Source: Bdellovibrio bacteriovorus (GTDB lineage: Bacteria > Bdellovibrionota > Bdellovibrionia > Bdellovibrionales > Bdellovibrionaceae). From it: a stretch of DNA of 64,000 bases. The stretch is from contig NZ_LUKE01000001.1 in the NCBI RefSeq assembly GCF_001592735.1, positions 744,001 through 808,000 on the forward strand. The letters are read 5' to 3'. The position numbers and the translations under genes are program-made. Below are positions 28,681 through 36,618 of this stretch, in pieces. Each line of letters opens with the position of its first letter. The first letter of the stretch is position 1. Below the pieces are notes generated by a model. It did not search any database, was not told the DNA's origin, and saw only the letters and a program-made list of their open reading frames with translations.

Positions 28681-30852
28681 CTAGGGTTTTGCCAGATTTT
28701 CGATCGAATTTATTAAACGCCATTTTTCGACAAGCTGAACTCCGTAAGAATCGGCAATCTTTTGAATTTCAGTATGATCTATAATTGTGGAAAATAAAAG
28801 GACTCGCCCAAGGCCACTGCCGTTTATAAGTTCCAAAAAGTCAAATGCAGTGTTTTCACCATCTTCAAAAGAGATATCCACCAGTACCAGCGGCTCAGAT
28901 CCTGTCCACTTCCGCAGCATCTCTCTGCCCTCGTTCAAATTAGAGATAGATAATGCTTGCACGTCCGGGACGGATGCCAATAATGCCCCAACATCACTAT
29001 TTCGCTCTAACACCCAAACATTGTCAGCTAGTTCAACCACAAAGGGCCTTAGCTCTTTCGGCATCGATATGATGAAGGCCGTTTTTTCCTCCGTATCCAA
29101 AGCCACCGAGCCTCCATAGCTTTCAACTTCTTTTCGAACTTGATAAAGACCCAAACCGGTACCGGCCTCTTTCCCAAAGGTCGCTCTCTCCTGAAACAAT
29201 TTCTTCCTAACTTCGTCAGGGATTTGAGGTCCATTATTGGCGATGATCACCTGAACTGATTCATCAAAGGATCTAATACGAATACTGACTTCAGTTCCCC
29301 CAGCCTCTATGGCGTTGTTAAGGATGTTTGAAATTGAGCGCTGCAAACTATAAAAAGGAATTTGCACCCCAAAAAAACCGTCATCCGCAATATGAAACAA
29401 AACTTGAGGGTAAATCTGACGATATGATGCAATTAACTCTTTTAAAACCTCTAATACATTTACCACTGGTAAAATTTTTTCTGACTTTTCGTTTCTATAA
29501 GCCTTCAGCGTATCGTCCGCGATATGGCGCACTCGAGCTGCAGACTCCACAATCAATGATCCAACTTCAGGTTCGACACGCCCCTTCAAATACTCGGATG
29601 CGATTTGCAGAGCCATTATCGGACCACGTAAGTCATGGGATACCTTAGCCGCAATTTTCATTAAAACCTCGGCCTCGGCCACCTTTAAGGCGAATTTCAT
29701 CTTTACTTTTTCTCGTTCGGCTTTTTTTTGAAAAGCGATTTTTTCGGCATCGGAACGGCGAAGATAATTGATTAGAATGACAGGAATTCCAACGTATTGA
29801 ATCAACAGCTGGACTACTAAAATTCTAGAAAAATCAAAATTCACATTGGTGAAATAAAAGGTCAGCAGCCCCATGAGAAACTCAATGGGAATAATCAAAA
29901 ATGAAAGTATAATATATTTTTTAGGAGACTGCTGAAGGATCATTAGAAGAGATAAATTGCAAAAGCAAAATATAAATATCCAGAAAATATTCGCTGTCCG
30001 TGAAGGCTCGTGAACGTATTCACGATCCTTCAGATTTGCGTAAACATTTAATAAATAAGAGCCGTAGGAAAAATATTCGTTAGTGGATTTATCTTCTTCG
30101 TAACCAAACCGCGCATAGGGATGCTTAATGGTTCCTGTGTAGTTATCTCGGGTCGTAAGAATCACGATCTTGGATGCAACATCTTCTTTCTTCACTTTTG
30201 AAAGAGGGATTTCAGGGACAGAGGGCGGATAATAAAATCGCAAGTTTACTTGCTTGGTGTCATAGACGGTTAAGATTCCAGATCCCAAGCCTTCATCCGC
30301 GTTGAACATTGGGATTACCGAGTTAAATTTCAAAAGATCGGTATCGTATCTAGGCCCCGTATCCATAGCCAAAACAAAACGGCGGGTCTTGTAATCGTAA
30401 GGGGGGAGGGAGGCATCCACCGTGTGTTTCAGAACTAAGTTTTTAGGACTCTCCTTAAATTTTGATTGCGCAAACGATCCGTCTTCTCCCCACTTCGAGT
30501 AAAGATAAAAATGGGGATAAGACTCAATTATTTCCTCCAACAACCCAACATCACGGATCTCCACAGCCTTGACTGCGAGAAGAAGCAGACTCGGTTCCCA
30601 AGCCGAAATTTTGCGGATATTTGCAATCAAATCCTCGACGGCGAGGGTTTCTTTATTATTTTTCAGCTCTGAAATATCGATGGAAACGATATCACTTCTT
30701 TTGTAGGTCGGAGAGGTCAGATAATTTCGCAGGTCTAAAAAAAGCGCATCTAGATAGCTTAGGCGCACCGCTGAGATAAGAAGGGACACCACAACTGCGG
30801 TAGCCAAAGAAACAATAAGCTTCACTCCCCATGTTCGAACAATACTGATCAT
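28681..30852 (-). CDS. CHASE2-domain hybrid sensor histidine kinase with degenerate receiver
   Basis: The 723-residue protein has a transmembrane helix near residues 10-30, a CHASE2-like extracytoplasmic sensor (about 35-290, with DIVSIDISELKNNKE and VNLRFYYPPSVPEIPLS), two or three transmembrane helices (about 297-365), a HisKA domain with phospho-acceptor His about 406 (VSHDLRGPIMAL), a HATPase domain (NILNNAIEAGG, GTGLGLYQVRKEVE) and a C-terminal receiver-like domain (about 600-723). The receiver keeps an Asp (VLVDISFE) and Lys (LVEKWR) but its acidic pair is replaced by ER. AGGAT precedes the ATG. It diverges from the radical SAM/peptide operon and resembles the CHASE2 kinase inside it. 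Confidence 0.85.
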   Translation of the reverse strand: MISIVRTWGVKLIVSLATAVVVSLLISAVRLSYLDALFLDLRNYLTSPTYKRSDIVSIDISELKNNKETLAVEDLIANIRKISAWEPSLLLLAVKAVEIRDVGLLEEIIESYPHFYLYSKWGEDGSFAQSKFKESPKNLVLKHTVDASLPPYDYKTRRFVLAMDTGPRYDTDLLKFNSVIPMFNADEGLGSGILTVYDTKQVNLRFYYPPSVPEIPLSKVKKEDVASKIVILTTRDNYTGTIKHPYARFGYEEDKSTNEYFSYGSYLLNVYANLKDREYVHEPSRTANIFWIFIFCFCNLSLLMILQQSPKKYIILSFLIIPIEFLMGLLTFYFTNVNFDFSRILVVQLLIQYVGIPVILINYLRRSDAEKIAFQKKAEREKVKMKFALKVAEAEVLMKIAAKVSHDLRGPIMALQIASEYLKGRVEPEVGSLIVESAARVRHIADDTLKAYRNEKSEKILPVVNVLEVLKELIASYRQIYPQVLFHIADDGFFGVQIPFYSLQRSISNILNNAIEAGGTEVSIRIRSFDESVQVIIANNGPQIPDEVRKKLFQERATFGKEAGTGLGLYQVRKEVESYGGSVALDTEEKTAFIISMPKELRPFVVELADNVWVLERNSDVGALLASVPDVQALSISNLNEGREMLRKWTGSEPLVLVDISFEDGENTAFDFLELINGSGLGRVLLFSTIIDHTEIQKIADSYGVQLVEKWRLINSIENLAKP

Positions 30853-31044
30853 GCCATCCTATCGGATTATACCCAATATCATTAAGATCTAGTTTATCCC
30901 TATAACTGTCTTCAAGCCTGACGCTCCGTGAAATAGTTTCCTTTTGCACCTAGGCTTCCCAGAGTTAGGCGCGAAAAGCACCAGCTCCCATCATGCATCT
31001 TATTGATTTTACTAGATTATTTTTAAGAATAATTCATCCCACAT
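30853..31044. promoter_or_regulatory. Divergent intergenic region upstream of the RiPP-like operon
   Basis: The region separates the hybrid kinase from the maturase operon. ATTATT (31016-31021) and AATAAT (31028-31033) form a perfect 6-base inverted repeat just upstream of the sigma-54 promoter and could be an activator or IHF-type site. I see no clear sigma-70 promoter for the hybrid kinase. Confidence 0.3.
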
Positions 31045-31060
31045 TGGAACACTAGTTGCA
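31045..31060 (+). promoter_or_regulatory. Sigma-54 (RpoN) promoter of the maturase-peptide-kinase-regulator operon
   Basis: TGGAACACTAGTTGCA matches the -24/-12 consensus TGGCAC-N5-TTGCW at all positions but one, with correct GG-GC spacing. The expected start is near 31071. The operon encodes an NtrC-type sigma-54 activator, making autoregulation likely. Confidence 0.6.
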
Positions 31061-31076
31061 TAAAACCCAAGTTGCT

Positions 31077-32354
31077 ATGGAACAACGACGTTTTAAAGAC
31101 ATTGTAGCATTCAAAGAAGGACAAAATGCTCCCATGGCTTTCCACGCCCGAAATTTGGAAGTAGCCGAGATCTCTGAAGAGCTTTGGAACCAGCTTGAAA
31201 ATGGCAGCGATGCTTCCTTGCAGGCCCAAATTGAAGCTTGGGAACTTGAAAACAGTCCAGAAGTTTTGCGCGGAAAAAGCACGCGCAACATTCGCCAGCT
31301 TATCTTGAACGTCACCCAAATTTGCAATCTGAAATGTACTTATTGTGCCGCCGGTGGCGATGGCTCTTATGGCTCACCACAAACCAGAATCAATGTTGAA
31401 AAAACTTTGCCACAAATTAAATTTTTCCTAGAAAGAATTGCGGAAGGCGAAACCTTCAAAATTCAATTCTTAGGTGGCGAGCCGTTGCTTTATCCAGATG
31501 GCATTCAAGAAATCGGCAACTACGTTCGTATGATCGCGGCGGAAAGAAATATCACGGCTCAATTCGGTATTGTGACAAACGGAACACTGATCACGGATCG
31601 AGCTTTGGAAGTTTTAACTAGTTTGAACATGGGCGTGACCGTCAGTATCGACGGGCCCGCCGAAATCAACGATCGCATGCGTCCCGCTAAAAACGGACAA
31701 GGCAGCACCGCAATGACTTTAGCCGGTCTTAAAAAATTAGCGGCGGTAAAATCGTCTTTACGCCACTTAGGCGTTCACGGTGTCTTTAACACCGAAAATA
31801 CAGACTTGGTGGCGGCTTTTGAGTTTTATAGATCTTTAAATGTCGACAGTTATGAATTCACCTTCGCGGTGGATGAAAACGATGATGACAGCAATCGCTT
31901 ATTTGTTGAACAAATGAACTTGGTCGCGAAAAAAGCATATGCCGAAGACGGCGAACAAGGACTTAGAAAAATCAGTCTGTTTGAAAAGTATTTCGATGCT
32001 TTAGATAAGCAACAACAGACAGAAAATCACTGTGGCGCGGGAAAATCGTTTTTGATGATCGACGCACGCAACGGTGTATTCACATGTCCTTGGGATGTGA
32101 ATGATAAATCAGAAAAAGTGGGCCAAGGCACCATCATTAATGATTCACAGCTTGAGGAGTATGCGGCACCACTTATTGAAAAGAACAATTGCGGCAACTG
32201 CTGGGCACGTTTTATGTGCGGTGGCGGCTGCATGTTCATTCATAAGCAAGCAACTGGGAATAAACATAAAAAAGACGGCCAATTCTGCTATAGAACCCGC
32301 AGTTTGGTCGCAACGGCATTAAAATATTATAAACATAGCAGGATCGCTAGTTAG
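31077..32354 (+). CDS. Radical SAM/SPASM peptide maturase
   Basis: This enzyme probably modifies the adjacent small peptide by SAM radical chemistry. The 425-residue protein has a 70-residue N-terminal region (KDIVAFKEGQ, EISEELWNQLENG) that may act as a leader-binding element, the radical SAM motif CNLKCTYC at 83-90, and LGGEPLL as the SAM contact. A full SPASM domain follows: Cys319-x13-Gly-x3-Cys337, then C372-x2-C375-x5-C381-x3-C385, then Cys404, enough for two auxiliary Fe-S clusters. This layout is known from RiPP maturases that make thioether, C-C or quinone-type modifications. Start is uncertain: ATG 31077 lies about 6 bases from the predicted transcript start, and ATG 31134 is possible. 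Nine bases separate it from the peptide gene. Confidence 0.88.
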   Translation: MEQRRFKDIVAFKEGQNAPMAFHARNLEVAEISEELWNQLENGSDASLQAQIEAWELENSPEVLRGKSTRNIRQLILNVTQICNLKCTYCAAGGDGSYGSPQTRINVEKTLPQIKFFLERIAEGETFKIQFLGGEPLLYPDGIQEIGNYVRMIAAERNITAQFGIVTNGTLITDRALEVLTSLNMGVTVSIDGPAEINDRMRPAKNGQGSTAMTLAGLKKLAAVKSSLRHLGVHGVFNTENTDLVAAFEFYRSLNVDSYEFTFAVDENDDDSNRLFVEQMNLVAKKAYAEDGEQGLRKISLFEKYFDALDKQQQTENHCGAGKSFLMIDARNGVFTCPWDVNDKSEKVGQGTIINDSQLEEYAAPLIEKNNCGNCWARFMCGGGCMFIHKQATGNKHKKDGQFCYRTRSLVATALKYYKHSRIAS

Positions 32355-32363
32355 GAAAAGTAT

Positions 32364-32474
32364 ATGGAAGGAAAAAAACGTATGAATAAAAATCATATCA
32401 AAAAAGTGAAACCAAAGAAGGACGTCCCACAAAAAGATCCTGGAGCGGACCAAGGCTGCGTACCAGTAAGATAG
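32364..32474 (+). CDS. Candidate RiPP precursor peptide, 36 residues
   Basis: This short frame lies between the maturase stop and the kinase start with gaps of 9 and 4 bases. It begins at an ATG with AGGA eight bases upstream; a second in-frame ATG at 32382 also has GGAAGGA upstream and would give 30 residues. The product has a very basic N-terminal half (residues 4-24, MNKNHIKKVKPKKD region) and a different C-terminus, DPGADQGCVPVR, with the only cysteine at residue 32. That split resembles a leader and core. Tight operon position beside a SPASM maturase is the main evidence. I recognise no described RiPP precursor family; the modification (for example a Cys thioether) is unknown. Confidence 0.7.
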   Translation: MEGKKRMNKNHIKKVKPKKDVPQKDPGADQGCVPVR

Positions 32475-32478
32475 GTTG

Positions 32479-34347
32479 ATGGAAAATCAAGACTCACTTA
32501 GCATCCTTAAAAAGCGCAATTATAAAGCGCTCGGCTTACAACTGCTTGTAAGCCTGGGGATCTCTTTGATTCTTGCACAGATAGATTTGCAGTATGTCGA
32601 AAGCTATCTGTACGACCTTCGCGTTCGCAGTAAAGTTATAAACACAACCACCAGCAATATCGAGCTGGTGTACGTCACCCCGGATACAATTCAAAAGCTG
32701 ACTGGATTTCCGGGGGCCGCAAGTCAAGGAACGCTGATTAGCAAAATTTTGGCAGCAGGTCCCAAGGCCATTGTCCTTGATTATGACCTTCAGTCTGCTG
32801 CAGGCTCCGAGGCTGATAAAAAAGCTTTAGAAAATCTGATTGCCAGCAATTCATCTATTTTTGTCGCTGGTAAATCCACTCCGTTTAAGGGCGAAGAAAG
32901 CGAGCTGTTTTTAAAAGCTCCTTTTGAAAAAATCCGCCTGACGCCTTCGCCTCGCACGACGGATTCCGTGAACTTTGCTAAAGACGGCGTTACCCGTCGC
33001 ATGCTTTTGACCTATCAAGGTCGAAAGATGCTCTCATTGCAATTAGCAGAGCTCTACAATCCAGAGATCAAAAGCCTTAACGCCATTCGTGGTCGTTTTG
33101 AGTTTTATGGAACAGATCAGGCGTATGTCGACTTTAACAAAGCCGGCAGCTATCCTTCCACCGCGTTTGAAAACGTGCTAGGTGAAAATTTTGATCCAAG
33201 TCAATACAAAGACAAAATCGTTTTTGTCGGTACGGATTTAAATTTAGATCCGGACGACTATATAAGCAGTCCCTTTGACCGCAAAGTAACAGCGATGACG
33301 CGTATTGAATACCAAGCTAATAGCATCGACACACTTATTAAGAACTCAGCCCCCGTTAAAGTCAGCACCTATGTAAATTGGTTTTTTATTTTTTTAGCTT
33401 CGATCCTGACGTTGCATGTGGTTTTGAATTTAAAGCCGACGAAGGGGCTTTTGATCCTGGTTTCTACTCTAGCGGGATTTATTCTTTTTTGTACCATGGC
33501 TTACTGGGCCTTCCGTTTATGGCTGCCGATGTCGGGGCCCTTGCTTTCGATATTTTTGTGTTATTACTTCTTTATCCCCTATCGTTTGATCATCGAAAAT
33601 CGTCGCAGCTGGGAGTACTATCAAAAGAACAAACTTTTAAGCCAAGTGGAAGAGCTTAAAACGAACTTCATTTCAATGATGTCTCATGATTTAAAAACGC
33701 CGATTGCACGCATTCAAGGCATGTCGGACGTTATTATTGCTGACGGCAATCCCCTAAGCAGCCAACAGCGCGAAGCCGTGGATACGATCAAACATTCCTC
33801 GGACGATCTTTTAAAATTTATCACCGCGATCTTAAACTACGGGAAGATCGAATCTCAAGGCGTGCAACTTCACTTGCAAAGCCGTGACATTAATAATCTG
33901 CTTCAAGAAGTCATCCGTAAGCATGAGTTCTTAGCCAAAGTAAAACGCATTCAAATCGTTTCGGAACTGGAACCTATGTTCCCAGTTCCGGTGGATGCCG
34001 AGCTAATGAAGCAGGTCTTTTCAAACTTGGTGGAAAATGCCATCAAGTACAGCCCTGAAGACACGAAAATCATGGTTTCCAGCGAAGAAAGTGCGACCAA
34101 AGTAGTCGTGCAAGTCGCTGATCAGGGGCCAGGTATTCCTCAGGACGAACTAGCAAATGTATTTATGAAGTTTTTCCGTTCAAAAAACGCCAAAAGCTCT
34201 CCTATCAAGGGTTCGGGGCTGGGCTTGTATCTGGCAAAGTATTTTACGGAGCTTCACCATGGGACGATTATTGTAGAATCTTCCCATGGTCAGGGGGCCA
34301 CATTTACGGTAGAACTACCGATGGAACAAGGGGGCAGTCATGCTTAA
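32479..34347 (+). CDS. CHASE2-domain sensor histidine kinase
   Basis: The 622-residue protein has a transmembrane helix at about 17-36, a CHASE2 extracytoplasmic sensor (about 37-290: ESYLYDLRVRSK, NIELVYVTPDTIQKL, PKAIVLDYDLQ, KDKIVFVGTDLN), three transmembrane helices (about 295-370), HisKA with His403 (MMSHDLKTPIARIQ) and HATPase (FSNLVENAIKYSPEDT, DQGPGIP, GSGLGLYLAKYF). All kinase boxes are intact. The ATG at 32479 is 4 bases after the peptide stop; a TTG directly before it is less likely. Its 3' end overlaps the response regulator by 8 bases, so they form a cognate pair. It may sense the modified peptide or the condition that calls for it (inference). Confidence 0.9.
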   Translation: MENQDSLSILKKRNYKALGLQLLVSLGISLILAQIDLQYVESYLYDLRVRSKVINTTTSNIELVYVTPDTIQKLTGFPGAASQGTLISKILAAGPKAIVLDYDLQSAAGSEADKKALENLIASNSSIFVAGKSTPFKGEESELFLKAPFEKIRLTPSPRTTDSVNFAKDGVTRRMLLTYQGRKMLSLQLAELYNPEIKSLNAIRGRFEFYGTDQAYVDFNKAGSYPSTAFENVLGENFDPSQYKDKIVFVGTDLNLDPDDYISSPFDRKVTAMTRIEYQANSIDTLIKNSAPVKVSTYVNWFFIFLASILTLHVVLNLKPTKGLLILVSTLAGFILFCTMAYWAFRLWLPMSGPLLSIFLCYYFFIPYRLIIENRRSWEYYQKNKLLSQVEELKTNFISMMSHDLKTPIARIQGMSDVIIADGNPLSSQQREAVDTIKHSSDDLLKFITAILNYGKIESQGVQLHLQSRDINNLLQEVIRKHEFLAKVKRIQIVSELEPMFPVPVDAELMKQVFSNLVENAIKYSPEDTKIMVSSEESATKVVVQVADQGPGIPQDELANVFMKFFRSKNAKSSPIKGSGLGLYLAKYFTELHHGTIIVESSHGQGATFTVELPMEQGGSHA

Positions 34348-35860
34348 GGTGTTGGTTGTTGATGACGATCAGGGCTTAAGAATTTCAGTAAAAACCGCGC
34401 TTACGGTCACGCAAAGATTTGCGGTTGATGAAGCTTTCGACGGCGTGAACGCCTTAGAAAAAATCAAAGCCAGCGAAACCAAGTATGATCTAGTGATTCT
34501 TGATGTCGACATGCCTCGCATGAATGGCCTTGAAGCTTTACGCCAGATCAAAGAATTTGATCCCGGCATTATCGCAATCATCATGACCGCTCACGCAACT
34601 CTGAATGACGCCATTCAAGCCGTGAAAGATGGTGCTTATAATTATCTGCCAAAACCGGTGGCCGGTGATGATTTATTGCAACTTATCGATAAAGCCGTGA
34701 ATGCGCACAACTTGATTTCAAATATTGCGGCGTCAGCGCCCGTGATGGTTGAAGCGGGTCGCAAAATCATCGGTAATACTTCGCAAATGCAAAAGGTCTT
34801 CAACATCATTCACCGCCTGGCGAAGGTTGAAACCCCGGTTCTTATTCGTGGTGCTTCGGGTACTGGTAAAGAACTTGTGGCAAAAGCCATTCACTACAAT
34901 TCCGCTCGCAAAGATGAAAAGTTTGTGGCGATCAACTGCTCTGCAATCCCAGAAAATCTTTTTGAATCAGAACTTTTCGGTCACGAAAAAGGTTCTTTCA
35001 CGGGTGCCGATCAACGTAAAATTGGTAAATTCCAATTCGCCGAAGGCGGAACTTTATTCTTAGATGAAGTGGGCGATATGCCGCAATTGATGCAAGTTAA
35101 AATCTTGCGTGTGCTACAAGAAAAAGTATTTACTCCCGTGGGTTCAAATCGTGAATTCCCAACGAATGTTCGTATCATCGCGGCGACAAATCGTCCGTTA
35201 GAAGATATGATCAAAGCCGGCTCTTTCCGTGAAGACTTATTTTATCGTTTGAATGTCGTGCCTATTTTCTTGCCTGCTTTGGCAGAACGCAAAGATGATA
35301 TGGAACATATGGTGAATATATTCATCAAAAAATTCAACGGGACTCACGGAAAACGTATCAATGGGATTGCTCCCGACGCGATGTCTGTTTTGAAAAAACA
35401 CACATGGCCAGGGAACATCCGTGAACTTGAAAACGTGATCGAGCACTGCTTTGTTCTTGAAACTTCCAACATCATCACCATCGCTTCGTTGCCTGAATCA
35501 TTGCTTTTAGCAACCGGCACGAACTTAATCGAAGTGATGGCTGAACAAAATGCACAAGACGTGGCTTCAGCGGGTATTACGGCGGTTTCCCAGGCTCATT
35601 CATTGGGTGATGATAGTGATGAGGATGCCGATTTAGATTCTGCAGATGATGGCGATGAAACCCCAGTTGGCTTTAGCGGCAACCCGGGACTTGATTTCAA
35701 CGCCCAAAAAGAAGCGTTTGAAAAAGAATTTATCATCAAAGCGCTTAAGACTTTCCGCGGACGCATCAACCAAACGGCTTTGCATGCGAACATTCCAAAG
35801 AAAACTCTTTTACGTAAGATCGAAAAATACGGCATCAATGCCAAAGACTATGTGAACTAA
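34340..35860 (+). CDS. NtrC-family sigma-54-dependent response regulator
   Basis: This is a bacterial enhancer-binding protein of 506 residues. A receiver domain comes first (acidic pair VVDDDQ, phospho-acceptor Asp55 in ILDVDMPRMNG, Lys in YLPKPV). The AAA+ domain has Walker A GASGTGKE at 171-178, GSFTGA at 218-223 (a GAFTGA variant contacting sigma-54), Walker B LFLDEVGDM and the arginine region EDLFYRLNVVPIFLP. An unusually acidic linker (GDDSDEDADLDSADDGDE, about 415-432) precedes a Fis-type helix-turn-helix (about 460-500). It overlaps the kinase gene by 8 bases. Its likely target is the sigma-54 promoter at 31045 at the head of the same operon. Confidence 0.93.
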   Translation: MLKVLVVDDDQGLRISVKTALTVTQRFAVDEAFDGVNALEKIKASETKYDLVILDVDMPRMNGLEALRQIKEFDPGIIAIIMTAHATLNDAIQAVKDGAYNYLPKPVAGDDLLQLIDKAVNAHNLISNIAASAPVMVEAGRKIIGNTSQMQKVFNIIHRLAKVETPVLIRGASGTGKELVAKAIHYNSARKDEKFVAINCSAIPENLFESELFGHEKGSFTGADQRKIGKFQFAEGGTLFLDEVGDMPQLMQVKILRVLQEKVFTPVGSNREFPTNVRIIAATNRPLEDMIKAGSFREDLFYRLNVVPIFLPALAERKDDMEHMVNIFIKKFNGTHGKRINGIAPDAMSVLKKHTWPGNIRELENVIEHCFVLETSNIITIASLPESLLLATGTNLIEVMAEQNAQDVASAGITAVSQAHSLGDDSDEDADLDSADDGDETPVGFSGNPGLDFNAQKEAFEKEFIIKALKTFRGRINQTALHANIPKKTLLRKIEKYGINAKDYVN

Positions 35861-35872
35861 TATGTCGACCTT

Positions 35873-35898
35873 AAAGGCCCCTTTTCAGGGGCCTTTTT
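35873..35898 (+). terminator. Rho-independent terminator of the RiPP/two-component operon
   Basis: AAAGGCCCC and GGGGCCTTT pair around a short loop and are followed by T residues. It sits 13 bases after the regulator stop and closes the operon. Confidence 0.85.
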
Positions 35899-36035
35899 CG
35901 TTTTGCAAGAAAAACCACCTTCATTTTTTTCATTTTTCGCGTTGCCTCTAGTTTCCAAATCCCCAAATCACCCCAATATCTAGAGTTGCATAAATATTGA
36001 GCACAACTTTGTTAGGATTTTGTGAGGGAGCCGCA

Positions 36036-36093: not shown

Positions 36094-36618
36094 ATGACCA
36101 TGAACCCATTGCCTCCCCAGGCATATACGAAAGACATTTTGCTAAAAGCCTATCAATGGCTGATGTTGCAAAATTCTTCTATCAAGGAGATGGCGACGAC
36201 GCCGGACATCCTGGTCAGCTTGTACCTTAAGACCACGCGTGATGGTGAACACGCTTTAGATCGTCCCAGCATTCAAAATTTCAAAAATGAGTTGCGCAGT
36301 TTAGCTGGAATGATGGGCGAATTAGATCGTCCACCACAAGCCGCCCCAGTGACGGCACCTAGCATGCCTTCACCTGCACCTGCACCCGCACCGGCCCCGA
36401 CGCGAATGATGCCTCCGATTATTGAAACTCCCCCGATGACCGCAACCCCCACCGCAGCAGCCACGATTCGCAAAGCGGACCTTTTAGAGCAGCTGGATTC
36501 TTGCAGCCGCACTATGATTCATGAAGTCAAAGAAGAGTTCAATCTCAGTTCCGACGTAGAAGCCTTACGAATGTTGATCAAAGTGGGTTATACGCGCTCT
36601 AAAAACCTTTTGTCTTAG
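36094..36618 (+). CDS. Unknown cytoplasmic protein with Pro/Ala linker
   Basis: The 174-residue protein has a helical N-terminal domain (about 10-75, ILLKAYQWLMLQNSSIKEMA), a Pro/Ala/Met-rich linker (about 82-120, repeated PAPAPA) and a C-terminal helical segment (about 124-172, RKADLLEQLDSCSRTMIHEVK, then LSSDVEALRMLIKVGYTRSKNLL). No signal peptide or known motif is visible. The two helical ends joined by a flexible linker suggest a scaffold or adaptor. AAGGA precedes the ATG. lspA follows 28 bases later on the same strand. Confidence 0.65.
   Translation: MTMNPLPPQAYTKDILLKAYQWLMLQNSSIKEMATTPDILVSLYLKTTRDGEHALDRPSIQNFKNELRSLAGMMGELDRPPQAAPVTAPSMPSPAPAPAPAPTRMMPPIIETPPMTATPTAAATIRKADLLEQLDSCSRTMIHEVKEEFNLSSDVEALRMLIKVGYTRSKNLLS

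Follow-up and report, generated by a model that had tools for sequence, protein, structure and literature searches.

Predatory bacteria of the Bdellovibrio type seem to possess a self-contained, previously unreported control loop built on a peptide, in which a short precursor with a single Cys, a radical SAM (rSAM) enzyme that would modify it, a CHASE2 histidine kinase (HK) and an NtrC-type response regulator (RR) are encoded together behind a sigma-54 promoter. In the window, meaning the whole 64,000-nucleotide stretch of Bdellovibrio bacteriovorus DNA analysed here, the precursor is the frame at 32364-32474 (+), which the original prediction had proposed as a candidate RiPP precursor while overlooking that it belongs to an operon of four genes, which has a two-component system and a sigma-54 promoter of its own. 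The operon comprises:

30929-30950, forward strand: candidate enhancer (UAS) box TGAAATAGTTTCCTTTTGCACC, whose spacing of about 116 bp to the -24 element downstream of it is kept in the genus
31044-31060, forward strand: sigma-54 -24/-12 promoter TTGGAACACTAGTTGCA, GG at 31046-31047 and GC at 31058-31059, from a weighted consensus scan
31077-32354, forward strand: radical SAM/SPASM peptide maturase, 425 aa (Pfam PF04055; NCBIfam; AF2; structure match)
31077-31247, forward strand: predicted RRE-like N-terminal leader-binding domain, maturase residues 1-57 (AF2 model and CteB alignment)
32364-32474, forward strand: RiPP precursor gene, 36 codons, with a likely start at 32382 giving 30 aa
32394-32414, forward strand: leader motif HIKKVKP, with H, K and P at >=90% of 50 aligned precursors
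32454-32471, forward strand: C-terminal tail GCVPVR, with Cys in 73/73 and Pro at +2 in 66/73 distinct precursors
32479-34347, forward strand: CHASE2 sensor histidine kinase with TM1, periplasmic CHASE2, further TMs, HisKA and HATPase (Pfam CHASE2, HisKA, HATPase_c; hydrophobicity)
34340-35860, forward strand: NtrC-type response regulator with receiver, sigma-54 activator AAA+ and Fis HTH (Pfam Response_reg, Sigma54_activat, HTH_8)
35873-35901, forward strand: strong intrinsic terminator directly after the RR, a 10-pair stem and T tail, the best in the region (35873-35896 in a narrower delimitation)

The precursor frame translates as MEGKKRMNKNHIKKVKPKKDVPQKDPGADQGCVPVR and has, as first described, one Cys at residue 32 (codon 32457-32459) and two in-frame ATGs (32364 and 32382), each preceded by an A/G-rich ribosome-binding site. 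The second ATG (MNKNHIKK...) is the likelier start, since most orthologs begin a few residues ahead of HIKK. The gene starts 9 nt downstream of the stop of the rSAM/SPASM gene (31077-32354) and ends 4 nt upstream of the CHASE2 kinase gene, with a small frame found directly 3' of the rSAM at nearly every intact locus. With E<=0.05 as the threshold, a peptide profile from 50 orthologs matched in 58 of the 66 genomes of the family (best E 8.5e-13), the matches nearly always adjoining the rSAM, and the pairing of precursor and rSAM recurs in other families of the order (examples of orthologous precursors are MTQQTHIKKIKPLKPKPSSTTKLAGPGGGTGEGCIPVR, MTKKHIKKVTPKKTEPSTRMPEGPRDCVPLST and MKKNHIKKLKPIKSTDSVIKTRDTGIACIPTGNPPDSSL). 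No known precursor family in Pfam or NCBIfam matched the peptide convincingly, and no Rfam element was matched within the window. That so short a frame, absent from both protein collections, might be a chance frame or a mere translational spacer between rSAM and HK is hardly credible, being refuted by conservation across three families of the order, a pooled pN/pS of 0.20 over 15 close ortholog pairs and the invariant Cys.

Across precursors the leader consensus is Lys-rich and HIKK[IVL]KP-like, the middle between leader motif and tail varies, and the tail follows G-x-G-C-[IV]-P, extended within the genus to GxGC[IV]P[VI][RK] and reduced to Cys-x-Pro in the wider set. Among the 50 aligned precursors the Cys is invariant and the Pro after it reaches at least 90%, while among the 73 distinct precursors the Cys is the sole one in 71, Gly occupies -1 in 43 and -3 also in 43, and position +4 is Arg in 19 and Gly in 28. 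The exceptions in the tail are C-P-E in one clade and a single precursor (L158) without the Pro. The suggestion that a DPGADQGC tail would be conserved behind a variable leader held for the last residues, but DPGADQ is not conserved and the leader is, through HIKKxKP. Of the signs that had been named as speaking against a precursor, poor conservation applies to DPGADQ but not to the very end of the C-terminal segment, and the substitutions are not noncoding-like, with the Cys kept in every distinct precursor and a pN/pS of 0.17 over the last 9 codons. At one locus (L027, G047) a single rSAM gene is followed by two tandem, different precursors with the tails TTGLSCIPIG and TTGLACIPSGLPNSSSN. 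The adjacent rSAM/SPASM enzyme with its RRE-like N-terminus, the leader/core layout, the invariant Cys, the purifying selection and these tandem precursors strongly support a RiPP-type precursor, such that the frame almost certainly encodes the precursor of a modified peptide, as originally proposed, with HIKKxKP likely acting as the maturase recognition site.

The maturase carries the radical-SAM motif CNLKCTYC at residues 83-90, with Cys 83, 87 and 90 invariant, and seven invariant SPASM Cys (319, 337, 372, 375, 381, 385 and 404). Orthologs are present in 59 of 66 family genomes, as a single copy per genome, and in further families of the order. The best NCBIfam matches are PapB at 182 bits (cut-off 340), nif11 at 171 (below its cut-off) and SCIFF at 140 (cut-off 425), and as all of these scores fall far below their cut-offs the maturase represents a separate subfamily. 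An AF2 model built from 68 sequences (mean pLDDT 92.6) has the N-terminal order E-E-E-E-H-H, and the closest solved structure is CteB (5wgg, Z 38.1), aligned over residues 7-422 with the RRE included. Profile comparison gave the same ranking (CteB E 1.2e-50, anSME about 1e-24), with the same seven SPASM Cys in maturase and CteB by profile alignment.

The invariant Cys is very probably the modified residue, and a Cys thioether, one of the chemistries that the original prediction had listed, is rather likely to be the modification, since the enzyme is closest to CteB, sharing with it the N-terminal RRE and all seven SPASM Cys. A thioether to a conserved Asp, Glu or Thr was rejected, as no such acceptor position is conserved among the 73 distinct precursors. 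A competing possibility, that the rSAM is anSME-like and converts the Cys to formylglycine, is raised by GCVPVR, in which the sulfatase signature C-x-P-x-R occurs literally; the Cys and the Pro at +2 are retained in 73 and 66 of the 73 distinct precursors, respectively, and anSME is itself a SPASM enzyme among the next-best fold matches (Z 32). This alignment, however, starts only at residue 71, anSME having no RRE, and the Arg at +4 is found in a minority of precursors, outnumbered there by Gly, with the motif kept mainly near the genus of the window and the Pro displaced or missing in the C-P-E clade and in L158. The catalytic Asp of anSME follows an AuxI Cys, the third auxiliary-cluster Cys, and on alignment to 4k37 the maturase has Pro at the position of this Asp and no counterpart of the extra Cys that is the fourth AuxI ligand, the RRE and the Cys pattern being those of CteB. 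All sites of AuxI are ligated in anSME, while CteB has an open site that is bound by the substrate Cys (PMC6231123). Formylglycine is thus improbable, and the comparison of enzymes and precursors favours the thioether.

Transcription of the operon is predicted to start from the sigma-54 promoter. Of 74 loci, 67 have a site with a score of >=12 no more than 130 bp from the rSAM start; the controls reached this score in 7% (shuffles), 2/74 (reverse strand) and 11/74 (coding). At >=14 the count was 35/74, with 0.1% of shuffles. The distance from the -12 element to the rSAM ATG is mostly 13-17 nt in the genus and about 17 nt in the window (31044-31079), so the rSAM mRNA is predicted to be nearly leaderless, a property conserved in the genus. 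As the ribosome-binding sites of the peptide are strong, the operon would plausibly yield much substrate and little enzyme. All the elements of an NtrC-type system with a sigma-54 promoter, namely the HK, the AAA+ activator RR and the -24/-12 site, are present.

The upstream box contains the stretch TGAAATAGTTTCCTTTTG (30929-30946), for which this is the sole exact copy in the window genome, and, with 0 mismatches allowed, the genus box is unique in the genomes of the window and of its relatives. At 2-3 mismatches the search for further regulon members with the genus box gave no excess over a reversed-pattern control. In other clades the box is the palindrome GGTGTCANNNTGACACC, of which the box in the window is a diverged relative, with the palindrome matching poorly in the genus of the window. 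In other genera a weight matrix built on the genus box performed poorly, and the palindrome took its place. In ten genomes of one family (f9), picked as bearing the box so that the count tests uniqueness within genomes and not prevalence, the palindrome is practically a single-copy element when up to 1 mismatch is allowed. It stands at the rSAM or kinase operon in nine of the ten, two of which have 1-2 extra sites with a single mismatch; the one site in the tenth (G236), likewise with a single mismatch, is elsewhere. The palindrome stands before the rSAM where this is present and before the kinase in rSAM-less genomes. Both kinds of locus have HK and RR in common, so the box is most naturally assigned to the RR, which would bind it. 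The regulon of the RR appears to consist of this one operon, whose only product besides kinase and regulator is the modified peptide, and autoregulation by the RR is probable.

The gene order rSAM-peptide-HK-RR holds at practically all loci with enough flank, with the kinase gene adjoining the peptide gene practically throughout and, in the window, overlapping the RR gene (32479-34347 and 34340-35860). The exceptions are two loci with the RR upstream and divergent (L048, L135) and one genome (G028, L114) in which the RR lies about 9 kb downstream. No transporter or peptidase linked to the cassette was seen, although the CHASE2 sensor should be periplasmic. Divergent from the operon is a second kinase (28681-30852, reverse strand) with a HATPase, a CHASE2-like N-terminal part and a receiver-like C-terminus, distant homologs of which (25-37%) occupy the equivalent place in several relatives. 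The gene that follows the RR, here and across the order, encodes an uncharacterised protein (36094-36618, forward strand) with an N-terminal PPQAYT[RK][DE]xL motif, and ileS/lspA often come next. This conserved gene and the frequent ileS/lspA beyond it place the cassette at a fixed chromosomal position rather than in a mobile cluster.

Within the order, HK is found in 121 and RR in 116 of 141 genomes, also without the rSAM, and a quick HK tree implies about six, and at least four, changes in rSAM presence by gain or loss. Frequent loss of the rSAM within the family was considered and rejected; several absences (e.g. G016 and G042) look like contig ends because their HK matches are truncated. 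True loss is likely in G038, where the rSAM is gone, HK and RR are kept, and a Gly/Pro-rich Cys-less ORF (...GKPPFNLDPNGNGGGGTKPPFT) precedes the kinase (L164). At three rSAM-less loci (L167, L168 and L171 in G197, G199 and G219) 160-210 bp separate a strong sigma-54 site from the kinase downstream of it, and the interval contains a small ORF that is rich in Lys and lacks Cys (MKLTVSVLNKVKKGASRKIKTKATSKPHDIT, MEFKSKIKKEAVKKPKGMISTSPSEYF and MKSLKKKLRKSTPVSKIAFSGLKAD), possibly an unmodified counterpart of the peptide. At other rSAM-less loci, including L175, L176 and L181, HK and RR keep the sigma-54 site and the palindrome with no space for a peptide, and here make up a two-component pair that regulates itself and lacks an evident output. 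In one further genome (L166, G196) an unrelated radical-SAM-like ORF (CNFKCSHC) lies on the other strand 1.5-3 kb upstream of the HK.

At the level of sequence, the gene, its family, its pairing with the maturase, the promoter, the uniqueness of the box and the terminator are established. In the mechanism proposed, the RRE-like N-terminus of the rSAM/SPASM enzyme would bind the HIKKxKP leader and the enzyme would, most likely, tie the sulfur of the invariant Cys to a carbon of a nearby residue in a small thioether ring. The four genes would form one operon, with the sigma-54 promoter at its front and the terminator at its end, in which the CHASE2 kinase would control the RR and the RR, most likely, activate only its own operon through the dedicated upstream box, therefore closing a positive loop whose sole dedicated product under regulation is the modified peptide. 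Once released, the peptide would probably signal back to the kinase of the same cell or of neighbours. This model as a whole, of an rSAM-modified Cys peptide in a self-regulated operon feeding back on the kinase, has a somewhat better than even chance of being correct. Speaking against it are the missing conserved acceptor for a thioether, the lack of a linked transporter or peptidase for a sensor that should be periplasmic, and the poor palindrome match in the genus of the window. Taken separately, release is presumed and the feedback of the peptide as a signal is put forward tentatively, on gene order and the box, at a little short of an even chance.

The same genes could instead make a peptide that is output only, such as an effector aimed at the envelope or at prey, or else a redox or metal cofactor, with the kinase sensing something unrelated and receiving no feedback from the peptide. 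RiPP-derived cofactors are likewise single-copy and clade-wide, and the HK-RR pair persists without peptide in many relatives, with no convincing kinase residues specific to peptide-bearing lineages. The CHASE2 domain is also about equally conserved with and without the peptide, which weighs against a strictly peptide-dedicated kinase, and together with the persistence of HK-RR without rSAM indicates that the kinase has some peptide-independent function. Against an output-only role, hardly any copy of the RR box is found outside its own operon, as is typical of autoinducing peptide systems, and no dehydrogenase or further maturation gene is linked to the cassette. This alternative is a substantial minority possibility. 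Returning to the feedback model, its most specific form, a loop of the predator lineage in which the single-Cys rSAM-modified peptide is the ligand of the CHASE2 kinase and the NtrC-type regulator has its own operon as the one target, is unlikely as a complete statement.

Peptide signals are little known in Bdellovibrio and its relatives, for which it has long been asked how they switch between attack and growth. A search of open-licence papers for a Bdellovibrio rSAM RiPP, the CHASE2 kinase of the cassette or position-guessed HD100 locus tags yielded nothing relevant, and the main text of the Tn-seq paper does not mention the cassette. A nearly universal, single-copy, self-regulating cassette is directly testable by gene deletion in a laboratory predator, and a single-Cys precursor without an obvious acceptor offers a clean test of a CteB-like enzyme on one thiol. 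If the model is true, the cassette would provide a Gram-negative lineage with a RiPP autoinducer driven by sigma-54, from which the first ligand for a CHASE2 sensor domain could result.

Among known systems, the cassette resembles the SCIFF/CteB type (ranthipeptides; also PapB) in pairing one short precursor with an RRE-bearing SPASM maturase that has the same seven auxiliary-cluster Cys. SCIFFs have been reported in quorum sensing (review PMC8326336). Like SCIFF, the peptide is kept as one conserved copy clade-wide, and for this reason both are unlike an antibiotic. Precursors of the ranthipeptide/SCIFF class, however, carry six Cys within some 45 residues, or CX3D repeats, and their thioethers are of the S-Cbeta or S-Cgamma kind, whereas 71 of the 73 precursors here have one Cys, with no Asp conserved among them; there is also no conserved Thr/Asp acceptor, the precursor sequence is unrelated and the rSAM scores below every NCBIfam cut-off. 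SCIFF is clostridial, while the present cassette belongs to Bdellovibrionota and has a two-component system and sigma-54 promoter in its operon. Nisin and subtilin are made from autoinducing RiPP clusters that contain the controlling two-component pair (NisRK and SpaRK), an arrangement shared by the cassette, in which RiPP genes and such a pair form one cluster. Those clusters use lanthipeptide chemistry, in contrast to the rSAM, CHASE2 kinase and NtrC/sigma-54 regulator here, which come without transporter, protease or immunity genes. The likeness to anSME lies in the SPASM rSAM and in the substrate motif C-x-P-x-R of the peptide in the window, and the differences in a short-peptide substrate, seven and not eight auxiliary Cys, Pro at the catalytic Asp and conservation of C-x-P only. 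In one study, streptococcal RaS-RiPPs under Rgg/SHP control combine an rSAM RiPP with the peptide-responsive cytoplasmic Rgg and a separate SHP pheromone (PMC13361665). They too tie an rSAM RiPP to a regulator, which here is a membrane kinase with a sigma-54 regulator in the same operon. By Cys number and cut-offs the cassette falls outside SCIFF, and by its auxiliary Cys and the missing Asp outside anSME; it joins a SCIFF/CteB-like enzyme to a gene logic like that of lanthipeptide autoinduction.
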